A stretch of 33,051 bases of DNA, taken from positions 1-33,051 of the forward strand of contig JACQXW010000020.1 in the NCBI GenBank assembly GCA_016208535.1. Reading direction: 5' to 3'. This document shows positions 5,174-33,051 of this stretch, one piece after another. Under the pieces are notes generated by a model, which saw only the letters and a program-made list of their open reading frames with translations, did not search any database and was not told the DNA's origin. Each line of letters starts with the position of its first letter. The stretch's first letter is position 1. Source of the stretch: Candidatus Terryibacteriota bacterium (GTDB taxonomy: Bacteria > Patescibacteriota > Minisyncoccia > UBA9983). Made by a program: the position numbers and the translations under genes.

Positions 5174-6499
5174 ATGCGAAAAATAAACCCCGTTAGAAGT
5201 AGTCAATCAAAGATTGGCGCCGAAATGTCAAAGACATTTCGGACTTCTAACGGGGTAAAGGAAAAAGCCCATCGCCTCCTCCGCTGGAGCGAAAAATACT
5301 TCAAAACCGACATGGTCTACCTCGCCCATGGCGGCTTCTGGCTGACCCTGGGGCAGATATTTTCCGCCCTAATAAGTCTTGGTCTTTCCATTGCTTATGC
5401 CAATCTCTTAACCCAGCAGACATTCGGAACTTATAAATATATTTTATCCGCCTATGGAATTATTTCTTTATTTGTAATACCAGGACTTTCCTCTGCAGTC
5501 ACCCGTTCTGTCAGCAGAGGATTTGAAGGATCGATAAAAGAAGGGTTTAAAAAGAAAATAAAATGGGGAACAATCGCCGGCATCGCCAGTTTTCTTATAA
5601 GCATCTATTATCTTCTGAATAATAATTTAATTCTGTCTATCGGGTTTTTAACCATCGGCTTATTTCTCCCATTAATGGAGTCTTTCGGCCTTTACTCCAG
5701 TTTTCTGGAAGGGAAAAAACTTTTTAAAGAAAGGGTTTTATATGAAATAGGATTAAATTTAATATTTGCGGCCGCAATACTGCTGACTATTTTCCTGACA
5801 AAAAATCTGTTTATAATCTTGGCTGTTTATTTTATATCAAATATTACAGGCAGAATAATATTTTATTTCTTAACTGTAAAGAAATTTAAAACAAACAATC
5901 TGGCTGACGAAGAAATGGATAGTTACGGCAGATCATTAAGTTTTTTTCAGATAGTTTCCAATGCAAGCCAATATTTGGACAAAATTCTTTTATTCACCAT
6001 GCTGGGCGCGCCCCAGGTGGCAATCTTCACTTTTGCCAGCGCCCTGCCGGACAGGATAAAATATCTGTTCAGATTCACCGGCACCATCTCGTTCCCGAAA
6101 TTCGCCGGCCGGCCGGCTGAAGAAATCAAAAAAAATCTGCCGAAAAAATTACTCCTGCTCGGCCTGATTATTTCTTTTGCGATAGTCGCCTATATCCTTG
6201 CTGCCCCCCTTATCTTTAAATACATCTTTCCGCAATATAAATCAGCCGTATTTCTCTCGCAGATAATAAGCCTTACCTCCATCTACGCCATCACCTATCC
6301 GATCGGCTCCTATCTCTCCGCCCATAAAAAAGTGAGGGAATTATTTATGATTTCCGGTTCCAGTTTTTTATTGGGATTAATTTGCCTGCTCGTCTTTATA
6401 CCCTTCTACGGAATCTGGGGGGCGGTCATCGGCGCCGCCGCCAACCGCCTCACAATCATCACCACTTCGTTTTATTTTTTAAAGAAAATAAAAGATTAA
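5174..6499 (+). CDS. Polysaccharide flippase (Wzx/MATE-like membrane protein)
   Basis: Multi-TM protein with 'LAHGGFWLTLGQIFSALISLGLSIAYANLLTQQTFGTYKYILS'; true start may lie downstream of the palindromic insert. Confidence 0.8.
   Translation: MRKINPVRSSQSKIGAEMSKTFRTSNGVKEKAHRLLRWSEKYFKTDMVYLAHGGFWLTLGQIFSALISLGLSIAYANLLTQQTFGTYKYILSAYGIISLFVIPGLSSAVTRSVSRGFEGSIKEGFKKKIKWGTIAGIASFLISIYYLLNNNLILSIGFLTIGLFLPLMESFGLYSSFLEGKKLFKERVLYEIGLNLIFAAAILLTIFLTKNLFIILAVYFISNITGRIIFYFLTVKKFKTNNLADEEMDSYGRSLSFFQIVSNASQYLDKILLFTMLGAPQVAIFTFASALPDRIKYLFRFTGTISFPKFAGRPAEEIKKNLPKKLLLLGLIISFAIVAYILAAPLIFKYIFPQYKSAVFLSQIISLTSIYAITYPIGSYLSAHKKVRELFMISGSSFLLGLICLLVFIPFYGIWGAVIGAAANRLTIITTSFYFLKKIKD
5184..5259. 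repeat. Palindromic element CCCCGTTAGAAGT...ACTTCTAACGGGG (5188-5255) with two internal AAA-loop hairpins, flanked by TAAA direct repeats (5184-5187, 5256-5259)
   Basis: 13-bp outer stem 5188-5200/5243-5255; hairpin 5202-5208/5212-5218 (one G:T pair); hairpin CCGAAATGTC-AAA-GACATTTCGG 5220-5242, perfect. Translated in frame as NPVRSS...RTSNGV. Confidence 0.85.
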
Positions 6500-12629: not shown

Positions 12630-13661
12630 TCATAATGCTTTTTCCCAACTTTCTTTATATAACCTCAAAGTTTCCTCTTTGTTTGGTAATTTTTCTATTG
12701 TGCTCCGCGCCCTTGCTCCCAAGTTCTTTCTTAAATCATCGTCTTCCATTACTTTCAGCATTGCTTCCGCCAATTTTTTAGAATCGCTCACGGGAATAAC
12801 GATTCCGCTCTCGTTATTTTTTATAATCTCTCCAGCGCACCCCACATCAGTCATAATTATCGGCAAACCATAACTTGCCGCCTCAATAACCGCCATTCCC
12901 CATCCCTCATAATCAGAAGTCAACAAAAACGCGTCCGCCTCTTGGTAAAATTTTGAAACATCCTCCTGCCAGCCAAAAAGTTTTATATTATCTTGTAATT
13001 TGTAATTAGTAATTAGTAATTCGTAATTTTTTCTCTCCGGCCCTTCGCCGACAATCCATAACTCCAGTTGTAAGTTGTTGGTTGTAAGTTGTTTGTTAAT
13101 TATCTCCCCCATCGCCTCTATCTGCATCTTTATATTCTTCACCACTACCAACCTTCCCACCGTCAAAAAAACAAACTTGTTAATTTGTTTCGGATTTCGG
13201 ATTTCGGATTTCGTGCTTATCTCTACATATATCGGCACCACCGTAATCTTCCCCTCACCAACCCCGAATTCCTCAACCAATTGCCTTTTTAATCTTTGAC
13301 TCACCACCCTTATTGAATCTGCCCGCGGAATCACGAACTTCGCAAGCAGTTTTCTGATACCGCGATATTTTTCAAACCCGTGAATCTGTAAATTAAGCCC
13401 GATGCCGAACCTTCTCGCCAAAAACCACCCCAAAAAAGCCAAGTAATACGCGTCCTGAACGGTGATAACATCATATTTTTCTTTTTTTAATATCTTTTTG
13501 GATTGAAAAAAAATCCTGATCAACCCGATTATTTTATTTTTTGAATCAGGAACAACCACATCGTATTGCTCAACGATTTTTTTATATTCGCTTATTCTTT
13601 TGGACAAGTTGGAATTTTTATCCAAAGCCGATCTGTCCAACCCCAAACTTAAAATCCTCAT
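12630..13661 (-). CDS. Glycosyltransferase family 4-like containing heptanucleotide-repeat-encoded segments
   Basis: TVGRLVVVKNIKMQIEAM...LLTSDYEGWGMAVIEAASYGLPIIMTDVGCAGEII. Confidence 0.87.
   Translation of the reverse strand: MRILSLGLDRSALDKNSNLSKRISEYKKIVEQYDVVVPDSKNKIIGLIRIFFQSKKILKKEKYDVITVQDAYYLAFLGWFLARRFGIGLNLQIHGFEKYRGIRKLLAKFVIPRADSIRVVSQRLKRQLVEEFGVGEGKITVVPIYVEISTKSEIRNPKQINKFVFLTVGRLVVVKNIKMQIEAMGEIINKQLTTNNLQLELWIVGEGPERKNYELLITNYKLQDNIKLFGWQEDVSKFYQEADAFLLTSDYEGWGMAVIEAASYGLPIIMTDVGCAGEIIKNNESGIVIPVSDSKKLAEAMLKVMEDDDLRKNLGARARSTIEKLPNKEETLRLYKESWEKAL
12993..13027. repeat. Five tandem heptamers T[TAC]GTAAT inside GT coding sequence
   Basis: ttgtaat ttgtaat tagtaat tagtaat tcgtaat. 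Confidence 0.9.
13067..13101. repeat. Degenerate tandem heptamers GTTGTAA/GTTGTTG inside the same gene
   Basis: gttgtaa gttgttg gttgtaa gttgttt gttaatt. Confidence 0.75.
13191..13211. repeat. Three tandem CGGATTT heptamers inside the same gene
   Basis: cggattt cggattt cggattt, encoding part of KSEIRNPK. Confidence 0.85.
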
Positions 13662-13974
13662 CCCGTTAGAGACAGGAAACGCTTTAATCTGTTTTTGATA
13701 TAGCGCTTACCCATGCCTGATTTTAAATATTTTTCTCTCGACCTTGTGTCTTCTTCATTTAAACATGTTCACCACGTTAGAAAATATTATTTTCTAACGT
13801 GGCAAGTAATATATTAAATTCCATGGACCCTTATTTTTTGTCCAAGTTGATTTTCCTTCATTGTGCTGATTAAAGCGTTTCCGTAGATTATTTGTGCTTC
13901 CAGTATACCATTTCCCGTCTTTCTTGCTTCTTATCACATATGCGTAAAACATAAGGTTGGGGTCTCTAACGGGA
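13661..13974 (-). mobile_element. Putative GIY-YIG-carrying mobile element with 13-bp perfect terminal inverted repeats TCCCGTTAGAGAC / GTCTCTAACGGGA and flanking direct repeat CTCA
   Basis: TIRs at 13661-13673 and 13962-13974; CTCA at 13657-13660 and 13975-13978. Confidence 0.7.
13772..13802. repeat. Perfect palindrome CCACGTTAGAAAATA-T-TATTTTCTAACGTGG interrupting the GIY-YIG gene
   Basis: 15-bp arms, 1-nt centre, read directly. Confidence 0.9.
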
Positions 13975-13982
13975 CTCATAAT

Positions 13983-16400: not shown

Positions 16401-16474
16401 ATATAATCCCGTTAGAAATCTATTAATAATATATTAGCCATAGTTTTGCTAAAAAATTTCTAACGGGATATAAT
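16401..16474. repeat. Palindromic element CCCGTTAGAAAT...ATTTCTAACGGG (16408-16467), flanked by 7-bp direct repeat ATATAAT (16401-16407, 16468-16474)
   Basis: 12-bp perfect arms plus flanking direct repeat; ends 7 nt before the ATG of the next gene. Confidence 0.85.
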
Positions 16475-27873: not shown

Positions 27874-29190
27874 TCAATGACTGCGGATGAAAACAAATCC
27901 CACGCCGCTGAAAATTCCCAGGCCGAGGATTATCCAAAGCCATTTTTTCGCGCCCGGAAAATTGTTTTCGGTCGCAGTAATGACACTTGCCCCGTTAGAA
28001 ACATTGTTTCTAACGGGGTTCGCAACTTGATCTTCTGTTGAAGTGGATAAATCAAAACTTTCTGTTTTTACTTCTGATTTTTTTATTTCCACTGGCTTTG
28101 ACTCGACAACGGTTGTCGAGTTTGTATTGGTATTGATATATGAATAAGCCACTGAGCCGTTTGGATATAAAATTTCAATATTTTTATTTATCTCAAGTTT
28201 TGAAATTTCTGCCGGAATAGGTAAAGATGATTTTGCTTTTATTAAAGTTGTTTCCGGAAATCTGAAAGTGACATTATTGCCTCTTAAAAACCAACCTGAA
28301 ATATCCAAGGTGATGCCGGAATCGTTTTGCAGTTTTATAAAATCTTTATTGGCTTGGGAAATTGTCAATTGATTGGGAATGATTTTTACAAGAACAATAT
28401 CAGAGGCAGAATATTCTCCTGAGGAAACATTTAAAACCGCGATGTATTCACTTGGATATTTATAGATATGTTTGACGCTCTTGCCTTCAGCCCTTCCGCC
28501 GTCGCCAAAACTCCAAACATAGCGCGCGTTTTCCAATAGCTCTTTATTCAGCCCGAGCGCTTGTCCGGAAAATATAACATCCGCGCCAGCCACACTGGTT
28601 TTATCCGACCCGGCATTGGCAAAAATCTGCGGCTCAACCGGCCAAGAAGAACTACCTTGATTTACTTGTTCTTCTGAAGATGATTGAGTGTTTTGACTCT
28701 GGTTATTTTGAGCGCCAGGAGTCGGACTTGCCGCAATCCATTGATTATCTATCTTTTGAAGAGAATTGCCATCGCCGTTTGCACCCAAATCTGACGAGTA
28801 AGCAACCTGATCCGCGATAATATCGCCGTTTTTTAACGCCAAAGTTTCACCTGTATTGCTAAAAGAAGACCAACTGCTGTCAAAAATAATCCCCTGGAAT
28901 CCCGGCCAATCATTTAAGAATTTTGCAGGGTCGCTGACAATCACGGCATAGGCGCCAGCCGGCAAAGTATCCCCGCCCTGATAGGCAGTGAACCCGTGAT
29001 TGGTGTCTGCCTCAAAAAACTTCCAACTTAAAAAATTAACTGTCTCTGTCCCAGAATTAAAAATTTCAATCCACTCTCGGCCAGTATCTAACCCATCTTT
29101 TAAATCATACATTATCTCATTAATAACAACCGCCGCATGAGTGAAAAGAGGAATTATAAATAAAATTAAAATTAATCTGACTACTAACAT
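27874..29190 (-). CDS. Lamin-tail-domain plus PKD-domain surface protein with C-terminal membrane anchor
   Basis: AAVVINEIMYDLKDGLDTGREWIEIFNSGTETVNFLSWKF; YVWSFGDGGRAEGKSVKHIYKYPSEYIAVLNV; WLWIILGLGIFSGVGFVFIRSH. Confidence 0.85.
   Translation of the reverse strand: MLVVRLILILFIIPLFTHAAVVINEIMYDLKDGLDTGREWIEIFNSGTETVNFLSWKFFEADTNHGFTAYQGGDTLPAGAYAVIVSDPAKFLNDWPGFQGIIFDSSWSSFSNTGETLALKNGDIIADQVAYSSDLGANGDGNSLQKIDNQWIAASPTPGAQNNQSQNTQSSSEEQVNQGSSSWPVEPQIFANAGSDKTSVAGADVIFSGQALGLNKELLENARYVWSFGDGGRAEGKSVKHIYKYPSEYIAVLNVSSGEYSASDIVLVKIIPNQLTISQANKDFIKLQNDSGITLDISGWFLRGNNVTFRFPETTLIKAKSSLPIPAEISKLEINKNIEILYPNGSVAYSYINTNTNSTTVVESKPVEIKKSEVKTESFDLSTSTEDQVANPVRNNVSNGASVITATENNFPGAKKWLWIILGLGIFSGVGFVFIRSH
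27990..28018. repeat. Perfect palindrome CCCCGTTAGAAAC-ATT-GTTTCTAACGGGG in frame in the LTD/PKD protein
   Basis: 13-bp arms, 3-nt loop; translated as NPVRNNVSNG. Confidence 0.9.
28101..28121. repeat. Perfect palindrome ACTCGACAAC-G-GTTGTCGAGT in frame in the same linker
   Basis: 10-bp arms, 1-nt centre; translated as part of NSTTVVES. Confidence 0.85.
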
Positions 29191-30864: not shown

Positions 30865-31163
30865 CCCGGTTAGTACAAATTCGAATTATTCTTATAATAA
30901 CTCTTCAACCTTTTTGCTAAAAATCTACGCCCGCCAGTGACTTTAAAATACTCCTCGCGCCTTTTGGCGTCCTCTTGGCTTAAACAAGCTTCATAATACA
31001 CGAGTTTTAAGGGCGTTCTGTATTTTGTGGAAATATTTTTACCCGAATTATGTTCTTCTAATCTTCTTCTTAAATTATTGGTATAACCAATATACTGCCT
31101 TTTGTCTTTTAAGCTTTGCAGTACATATACATAGAAGAACACATTCGAATTTGTCCTACCGGG
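30865..31163 (-). mobile_element. Putative GIY-YIG-carrying mobile element with ~21-bp imperfect inverted repeats CCCGGT(TAGT/AGG)ACAAATTCGAAT and flanking CAT direct repeat
   Basis: IRs at 30865-30886 and 31143-31163; CAT at 30862-30864 and 31164-31166. Confidence 0.65.
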
Positions 31164-31166
31164 CAT
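30870..31166 (-). CDS. GIY-YIG single-domain endonuclease
   Basis: FFYVYVLQSLKDKRQYIGYTNNLRRRLEEHNSGKNISTKYRTPLKLVYYEACLSQEDAKRREEYFKVTGGRRFLAKRLKSYY. Confidence 0.93.
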   Translation of the reverse strand: MPGRTNSNVFFYVYVLQSLKDKRQYIGYTNNLRRRLEEHNSGKNISTKYRTPLKLVYYEACLSQEDAKRREEYFKVTGGRRFLAKRLKSYYKNNSNLY

Positions 31167-32206: not shown

Positions 32207-32444
32207 CCTTCAACGAATCAAAGAGGGATATTTGATGTGGATTAGTATTATCCAACATATACCCAGAAGCAGCCGTTATACAATCGGCGCGCGAATTGAA
32301 AATAAATTCCTTGACCTTCTTGAATTATCATATACCGCTTATTTTACAGAAAAAGAAAATAAAAACGACAAAATATCGAAATGCATGCATTGTCAACGGA
32401 ATTCGCGTTCACATTCCAGCCGTCGTCGTTCCAGTTGCAGTTGA
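32156..32444 (+). pseudogene. avd: avd-like DGR accessory protein, frameshifted at a (TC)n tract and truncated at the TR
   Basis: ATG 32156 MTKPSS(LS)n, then from 32193 in another frame DNASILQRIKEGYLMWISIIQHIPRSSRYTIGARIENKFLDLLELSYTAYFTEKENKNDKISK, then TR-antisense sequence. 'IPxxxRYTIGxRIENxFLDLLEL' resembles Avd four-helix-bundle proteins. Confidence 0.6.
32171..32192. repeat. (TC)11 dinucleotide microsatellite in the overlapping 5' ends of RT (-) and avd-like ORF (+)
   Basis: 22 nt of uninterrupted TC; encodes RERERER at the RT N-terminus. Confidence 0.95.
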
Positions 32445-32472
32445 CCATCCACAGCACATCATCGCTATCGTG
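32387..32472 (-). repeat. DGR template repeat (TR), about 86 bp
   Basis: Aligns ungapped to VR at offset +451. Minus strand rich in AAC/AAT codons: VLWMVNCNWNDDGWNVNANSVDN. Confidence 0.9.
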
Positions 32473-32791: not shown

Positions 32792-33051
32792 TCAGGAATT
32801 GCAAGAAAAGACAAGATAGCCAGCGTTCCAGTCAAGCGCATAGTCAACGGAATTCGCGAACACAATCCAGCCGTCGTCGTGCCAGAAGCAGTAGACCATC
32901 CACAGCACAGCAACGAAATCGCGAACATAGAAGATGTTGGCGTAGCCGTTGGCAAGCAGTGTTCCGGTTTCACCGTTCGGCTGTTTCTCCATAAGGGCGA
33001 ACATTGCGGAAAGCGTTGTTTCCACCTTGTCTTCGCCGCCAAGCTCGTTGA
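32792..33051 (-). CDS. DGR target (variable) protein, C-terminal part; runs off right edge
   Basis: Open to the edge: ...NELGGEDKVETTLSAMFALMEKQPNGETGTLLANGYANIFYVRDFVAVLWMVYCFWHDDGWIVFANSVDYALDWNAGYLVFSCNS*; contains the VR near the C-terminus. Confidence 0.85.
   Translation of the reverse strand, partial: NELGGEDKVETTLSAMFALMEKQPNGETGTLLANGYANIFYVRDFVAVLWMVYCFWHDDGWIVFANSVDYALDWNAGYLVFSCNS
32838..32923 (-). repeat. DGR variable repeat (VR)
   Basis: Pairs with TR 32387-32472; 13 substitutions, 12 at TR adenines (coding strand). Confidence 0.9.

Follow-up and report, generated by a model that had tools for sequence, protein, structure and literature searches.

Evidence for a family of minimal mobile elements formed by a small GIY-YIG nuclease gene between terminal inverted repeats

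An interrupted element and its neighbours in the window

The window (the whole stretch of DNA analysed here, 33,051 bp) contains, at 13661-13974 on the minus strand, a disrupted element of the type that we call family A, which has four copies in the genome. It measures 314 bp from one terminal inverted repeat (TIR) to the other and consists of a GIY-YIG nuclease gene between perfect 13-bp TIRs. The TIR at 13661-13673 (TCCCGTTAGAGAC) forms the 3′ end of the gene and encodes the C-terminal residues LSLTG, and the TIR at 13962-13974 (GTCTCTAACGGGA) forms its 5′ end and is translated as MSPVRD following a captured ATG (13977-13979, minus strand) that now serves the GIY-YIG gene. Both sides carry the 4-bp target-site duplication (TSD) CTCA, at 13657-13660 and 13975-13978, which reads TGAG in the orientation of the gene. 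An earlier note on this DNA had described a unit of about 314 bp with perfect 13-bp TIRs and exact CTCA flanks, and its extent is confirmed. With up to two mismatches allowed, the 13-mer TIR has seven matches in the window where 0.26 are expected, a number that none of 100 shuffles attained.

The frame inside these ends belongs to the GIY-YIG domain (PF01541; an intact relative scores 61.5 bits, E 9.8e-17, against a curated cut-off of 22.6). A 31-bp palindrome (CCACGTTAGAAAATA..TATTTTCTAACGTGG, 13772-13802) is nested within it. The open reading frame (ORF) list and alignment with the intact copies L001 and L003 leave an N-terminal part of 61 residues (13794-13979, minus strand), shortened by the palindrome, and a C-terminal remainder (13658-13771, minus strand, ..EEDTRSREKYLKSGMGKRYIKNRLKRFLSLTG*) that is out of frame with respect to the start; the catalytic residues of the window copy itself are disrupted. 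The nested palindrome is of the same kind as the ORF-less palindromes found elsewhere in the genome, and its flanks (TTCA on the left, CAAG on the right) form no clear TSD. Because it interrupts the frame, the window copy cannot be autonomous. When the four genomic copies are aligned, L001 and L003 are intact (280 bp), and L005 and L006, the latter being the window copy, are broken by the same nested palindrome at the same insertion point, at two unrelated genomic sites. The presence of one disabled form at two sites points either to movement in trans or to gene conversion, and L006 looks like a mosaic, with a 5′ part resembling L003 and a middle resembling L005. The suggestion of the earlier note that 13658-13979 is a candidate autonomous element thus fails for this disrupted copy and holds for its sisters L001 and L003; the note had missed the nested palindrome as well as a second GIY-YIG element of the window, which has a different TIR.

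The target of the insertion is a glycosyltransferase gene (12630-13661, minus strand), the ATG of which (13659-13661) is composed of the last A of the element and the duplicated TGAG. In a related genome (G006) the start of this gene is intact without the element, in a one-sided comparison where the gene side alone aligns.

Three ORF-less palindromes of the window share the TIR motif, as had been proposed, and are real. The palindrome at 5188-5255 has family-A ends, the TSD TAAA and the form of a three-way junction, and lies in frame in the N-terminus of the ORF at 5174-6499; a second family-A palindrome (16407-16468) is flanked by TATAA on both sides; and a third, of 29 bp (27990-28018), lies in frame within the ORF at 27874-29190. 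We note that the in-frame palindromes add short peptides such as NPVRNNVSNG, to a lamin-tail-domain protein at 27990-28018 and to a membrane-protein N-terminus at 5188-5255.

The second GIY-YIG element of the window (30865-31163, minus strand; ends CCCGGTAGGACAAATTCGAAT / CCCGGTTAGTACAAATTCGAAT) belongs to a different family, C, and contains an intact GIY-YIG ORF of 98 residues (30870-31166, minus strand). It lies between two ATGs, the ATG and the ATGGCT of a TraG/VirD4-like gene. A reverse transcriptase gene (PF00078; 31172-32206, minus strand) is located near a pair of 84-bp repeats (32387-32470 and 32838-32921) that are 86% alike and differ mostly at A positions of one copy, read on the minus strand; together these look like a diversity-generating retroelement with its template and variable repeat.

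Ends, duplications and insertion sites in the genome and its relatives

The source genome (518,588 bp in 28 contigs, 97% complete) contains 55 occurrences of the family-A core CCCGTTAGA, against three for the reversed control, and 54 of them pair by position into 27 convergent pairs. Four pairs enclose a GIY-YIG gene (278-312 bp between outer cores); the other 23, in elements of 29-119 bp, have no ORF between them. The longest pair is a GIY-YIG one; since no pair exceeds these in length, no transposase gene is bounded by CCCGTTAGA ends among the 27 pairs of this genome. In each of the 23 palindromes, 13 or more end bases pair perfectly, and 16 palindromes show an exact 4-bp TSD (mean 2.1 and maximum 7 in 1000 shuffles), with two further palindromes flanked by the 5-bp TATAA on both sides. 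They thus share TIR and TSD length with an ORF-bearing partner and lack an ORF themselves, which is what defines miniature inverted-repeat elements (MITEs). Ten of the palindromes of 61-69 bp fold, with RNA as well as DNA parameters, as a three-way junction in which a 13-bp outer stem bears two inner hairpins; L265 prefers a longer single hairpin. In the alignment of the ten, 94.5% of the cells are paired, against 78.7% in shuffles and up to 49% in slid versions, and two-sided changes occur in 18 of 30 pairs, against 10.3 in shuffles. Neither the window nor the palindromes match any Rfam family.

With the intact protein as query, species genomes yielded 80 loci, in Patescibacteria lineages, Omnitrophota, Planctomycetota, Desulfobacteraceae/Syntrophaceae, WOR-3, Schekmanbacteria, Thermodesulfovibrionia, Endomicrobia, Celaenobacter and Woesearchaeota, mostly in metagenome-assembled genomes, for some contigs of which the taxon label may be wrong; homologues in plasmids and phages were practically nonexistent. 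Both TIR cores are present at 85 of 89 loci (these 80 and others), a result that is not built into the search because the left TIR lies outside the query. When small GIY-YIG genes were instead taken from 57 genomes regardless of TIRs, flanking inverted repeats scored at least 11 in 50 of 96 cases, leaving roughly half of these small GIY-YIG proteins without flanking TIRs; over the whole set such repeats flank 126 of 176 genes, against 4 of 660 shifted controls. The ends fall into five families: CCCGTTAGA (A), CCCNGTNAAAT (B), CCCNGTA/CCCGGTAG (C), CCCCCACAC (D) and CCCNTCACC-like (E). Several of the families other than A also show 4-bp duplications (TATG, TACG, TGTG, TAAG, TCAA).

After removal of duplicate loci (L017=L054, L018=L052, L020=L095), an exact 4-bp TSD flanks 43 of 84 non-redundant GIY-YIG elements, against a mean of 14.0 and a maximum of 22 in 1000 shuffles; the frequency of a single duplication, TGAA, accounts for the high shuffled mean. 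No other TSD length (2, 3, 5 or 6) or offset gives more than 12 (other offsets 0-2), and the signal is thus confined to one offset. The two ends also change together: with the right arm read as its reverse complement, the terminal bases of 85 elements are T/T in 52, C/C in 28, G/G in three and otherwise in two, and those at position 12 are T/T in 49, C/C in 29, A/A in six and otherwise in one, and the terminal base is complementary in all 43 short palindromes considered. Such covariation is expected either from a paired structure or from gene conversion that equalises the ends, and the data fit both.

Mobility is also indicated by copies in unrelated flanks within one genome, which share 290 of 307, 255 of 294 and 287 of 314 bases (91-94% for the best), and by empty sites. 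The family-C element L127 of genome G003 (TTATG|CCCGG..CCGGG|ATGCAAGG) is absent from eight genomes of the same taxonomic family, and in the same-genus genome G009 both flanks align over the junction (73% over 290 bp); similarly, L129 at groES (TSD TATG) is absent in the same-genus G008. These two-flank empty sites concern family-C elements, the window copy's own site being compared on one side. Some insertions are common to related genomes (L083/L088/L096 between pheS and pheT, L069/L111, L045/L047) and were therefore inherited after insertion. They would also be the observation in favour of a family that is not mobile at all, with inverted repeats acting as a terminator or RNA hairpin, or arising by chance, around vertically inherited genes. 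We regard that reading as wholly improbable: it is refuted by the TSDs, the empty sites and the copies in unrelated flanks, and by the one-to-one pairing of 54 of the 55 CCCGTTAGA sites. A terminator hairpin was set aside, as were an assembly artefact, since the family recurs in many independent assemblies, and an intron or intein, since the element has its own start and stop and no evident splicing.

The loci thus combine exact-end TIRs, a fixed 4-bp TSD and varied as well as empty sites, as transposons do, and judged from these comparative data they represent a real family of minimal mobile elements. The relation between autonomous and non-autonomous members put forward in the earlier note is well supported by the 27 TIR pairs, four with a GIY-YIG gene and 23 without an ORF, together with the TSDs, empty sites and moved copies. 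The check that the note had proposed, on the flanks of related GIY-YIG ORFs, found inverted ends kept and positions polymorphic, rather than ends lacking or loci vertically fixed.

Some loci depart from the common pattern. The family-B GIY-YIG element L033 (G010:C65) has direct-repeat flanks of about 60 bp that duplicate the start of the downstream gene, far above the usual 4 bp. At L067, L120 and L292, where elements lie in tandem, neighbours share a single duplication, which suggests that a later copy entered the target rebuilt by an earlier one. The 51 exact palindromes of genome G018 (L202-L221) have conserved flanks too (TGAGCA..TAAGGTTTTG); the repeated unit therefore exceeds the palindrome, and it may represent another element or a target that is itself repeated.

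Insertion at start codons is a frequent outcome. Of 84 elements, 30 have ATGNN as their left flank and a rebuilt ATG that begins an ORF of 80 or more residues; judged by N-terminal sequence, the genes concerned include pyrG, two topA, two fmt, dnaJ, ychF and others. The host's ATG is taken by the GIY-YIG gene, and the new start of the host gene consists of the element's last A and the duplicated TGAN. These sites may be chosen, or they may merely be the ones that survive selection in compact genomes. Pilin genes are further targets, at TTTA sequences in their GFTLIE motif (L049, L051, L085), at times with several elements in series (G029). In the pilin-like genes at L284 (G029:C2:14200-16300) the GFTLIE motif holds serial palindromes in frame (..LTGFTPVKSFASRNLTGFTPLNSCEANLTGFTLLEM..). 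A 1.8-kb TIR pair of G029 was considered as a transposase candidate and rejected, as it comprises several separate short elements from repeated pilin-gene insertions. The family-E elements L042, L135 and L137 adjoin 5′ sequence that is tRNA-like (TAGCTCAGTG, CCGTAGCTTAGTGG), a likeness by sequence.

The GIY-YIG protein as the probable mobility enzyme

The protein encoded between the TIRs is well conserved. Eight catalytic positions (Y3, Y5, Y16, G18, R26, H30, E62 and N76, as numbered in the 86-residue query) are at least 95% conserved among 65 copies, and the median dN/dS of 0.20 over 13 pairs with dS below 1 denotes purifying selection, which would fit a host function too. The AlphaFold model (pLDDT 90.5) finds its closest folds in UPF0213 protein BH0048 (1zg2) and in Slx1 of the Slx1-Slx4 complex, in agreement with the sequence matches. 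SLX1 is a structure-specific nuclease for branched DNA, and the SLX1-like fold therefore suggests, without proof, the paired TIR or a junction as the substrate. On a protein tree built from the first 76 residues, so that the TIR-coded end is excluded, the five TIR types change only five times over 49 rows, against a mean of 29.0 and a minimum of 24 when shuffled, the types having been assigned by patterns made by eye and three of them by hand.

The ORF-less palindromes are associated with the family-A gene across genomes. Their covariance model has matches in 28 of 57 relatives, with up to 44 per genome, where both strands of one element may count. Palindromes occur in nine of ten genomes with a family-A GIY-YIG gene and in 19 of 47 without (Fisher p = 0.005), and the median number of matches is 23.5 in the family-A hosts against 0 in the others (p = 1.2e-5), both p-values being optimistic because the genomes are related. 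One genome rich in palindromes, G018, has a GIY-YIG element (L146) with the same unusual subterminal bases.

The 19 genomes in which palindromes match and a family-A GIY-YIG gene is undetected would suit a different mover, namely an unlinked host or insertion-sequence transposase that acts in trans on the real element, the GIY-YIG gene being cargo whose nuclease might, for instance, trigger repair or limit competitors. TIRs with TSDs are the hallmark of DDE transposases, and the spread of broken L005 and L006 with the same nested palindrome at two sites can be read as movement in trans, or as gene conversion. Yet none of the 27 TIR pairs of the genome encloses another gene; DDE_Tnp_1 was found in two of 57 genomes and in none of the ten family-A GIY-YIG hosts; Y1 transposases show no association; and at least five GIY-YIG clades each have a TIR type of their own, which cargo would not explain. 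We consider a transposase acting in trans unlikely, if less so than the remaining alternatives.

Hairpin ends also bring to mind a REP-associated tyrosine transposase (RAYT/Y1) that would recognise and move the palindromes, with the GIY-YIG protein as a helper or incidental. The genome indeed has five Y1_Tnp genes, one of them about 1.5 kb from copy L005. Y1_Tnp is missing, on the other hand, from seven of the 15 genomes with at least ten model matches, and over the 57 genomes it does not co-occur with the palindromes as RAYT genes do with REP sequences (Fisher p = 0.60, Spearman rho -0.12). The frequent exact 4-bp duplications are also at odds with Y1 enzymes of the IS200/IS605 type, which do not duplicate their target. 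There is little to commend a Y1 mover on this record.

It is just as improbable, in our estimation, that the GIY-YIG gene is a free-standing homing endonuclease gene that reaches cognate sites through double-strand-break repair, with the TIRs as its recognition site. The fold is that of homing endonucleases, with a weak match to TIGR01453 (group I intron endonuclease), and certain sites recur in related genomes (the GFTLIE pilin motif, pheS-pheT and pyrG). But homing depends on a long stretch of homology at the target and produces no TSD, and the elements occupy many unrelated sites with short 4-bp duplications in place of one long cognate site; their ORF-less derivatives multiply as well.

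With a GIY-YIG gene alone between the TIRs, and no DDE, Y1, HUH, tyrosine or serine enzyme there, the elements are not filed under any known family of insertion sequences. We propose that the GIY-YIG protein is itself the mobility enzyme, which the exclusion of other genes, the co-segregation with TIR type and the selection on the protein make probable. The intact unit comprises about 275-282 bp, with 13-bp TIRs (TCCCGTTAGAGA[C/T] or CCCCGTTAGAGA[C/T]), one GIY-YIG gene of about 90 codons and a 4-bp duplication, and its protein would most likely move not only the element that encodes it but also, in trans, those ORF-less palindromes that have matching ends. The substrate of the nuclease may be the hairpin or branched structure that the paired TIRs form, with cleavage at its base; insertion would follow at a staggered 4-nt target, T-rich and often TGAN or TTTA, with the gaps presumably filled by the host. 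Insertion into ATGAN start codons would be tolerated because the GIY-YIG gene captures the host ATG and the terminal A with TGAN rebuilds the host start. To our knowledge GIY-YIG enzymes are hydrolases, and we know of none that joins strands. The structure-specific, SLX1-like manner of cutting, to which the covarying hairpins and three-way junctions point, is the more tentative part of the proposal and, in our estimation, somewhat less likely than not. Taken as a whole, we give a probability of roughly 0.6 to the reading that these are a class of DNA transposons, and the smallest autonomous ones known, in which a structure-specific GIY-YIG protein of about 90 residues is the sole mobility enzyme, acting on paired TIRs as a hairpin or junction and mobilising three-way-junction palindromes in trans, with coevolving subfamilies of TIR and enzyme and with start-codon insertion that leaves the host gene readable.

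Relation to known systems

Were the GIY-YIG protein the mobility enzyme, it would add a new enzymatic class to the few known transposition chemistries. It would also explain the abundance of small GIY-YIG genes, usually read as repair enzymes, in Patescibacteria, Omnitrophota and other uncultivated lineages, and would offer an origin for bacterial palindrome families that lack a known mover. By the start-codon trick a selfish gene can insert into operons that streamlined genomes need (the essential topA, pyrG, fmt, groES and ychF) and leave them unbroken. These are apparently the smallest self-contained mobile elements known, and their enzyme is of a kind to which such movement of DNA had not been ascribed before. 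No description of TIR-bounded GIY-YIG elements was found in the literature searched, which covered subscription papers and bioRxiv preprints incompletely; this is weak evidence, and an earlier description is possible.

Mobile elements that include a GIY-YIG nuclease are known. Penelope-like elements use a reverse transcriptase. In the Tsy transposon a tyrosine recombinase moves the element and the GIY-YIG protein is a non-essential helper (PMC10293859). Insertions encoding GIY-YIG proteins have been reported at scattered sites in the rRNA genes of CPR bacteria, match neither group I nor group II introns and are described in a text that does not mention inverted repeats (PMC11270868); they may be further members of the family. 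The GIY-YIG homing endonucleases (I-TevI, the T4 Seg type and intron-encoded enzymes) belong to the same superfamily and likewise spread selfishly, but they enter one long cognate site via repair, in contrast to the many sites, TIRs, TSDs and ORF-less derivatives seen here. The best matches in sequence and fold, UPF0213/YhbQ-like proteins and SLX1, share the small stand-alone catalytic domain; they are cellular enzymes without TIR flanks, and the element has no Slx4 partner.

REP/REPIN sequences with their RAYT (Y1) enzymes, and the IS200/IS605 elements, resemble the present family in having short hairpin palindromes dispersed by a small nuclease-like enzyme, and differ from it in that here a 4-bp TSD is present, a GIY-YIG gene lies between the palindromic ends and Y1 shows no association over 57 genomes. 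The palindromic elements of Rickettsia are short palindromes inserted in coding genes, sometimes in frame, for which we know of no mobilising enzyme; the likeness to the in-frame palindromes described here is one of description. A further parallel in organisation is with DDE insertion sequences and their MITEs, which have TIRs and a short duplication and in which an autonomous form with one gene shares its ends with many ORF-less derivatives. Here, by contrast, a GIY-YIG protein of about 90 residues takes the place of the transposase, the whole element measures about 280 bp, the ends covary base for base and the derivatives are conserved hairpins and three-way junctions.
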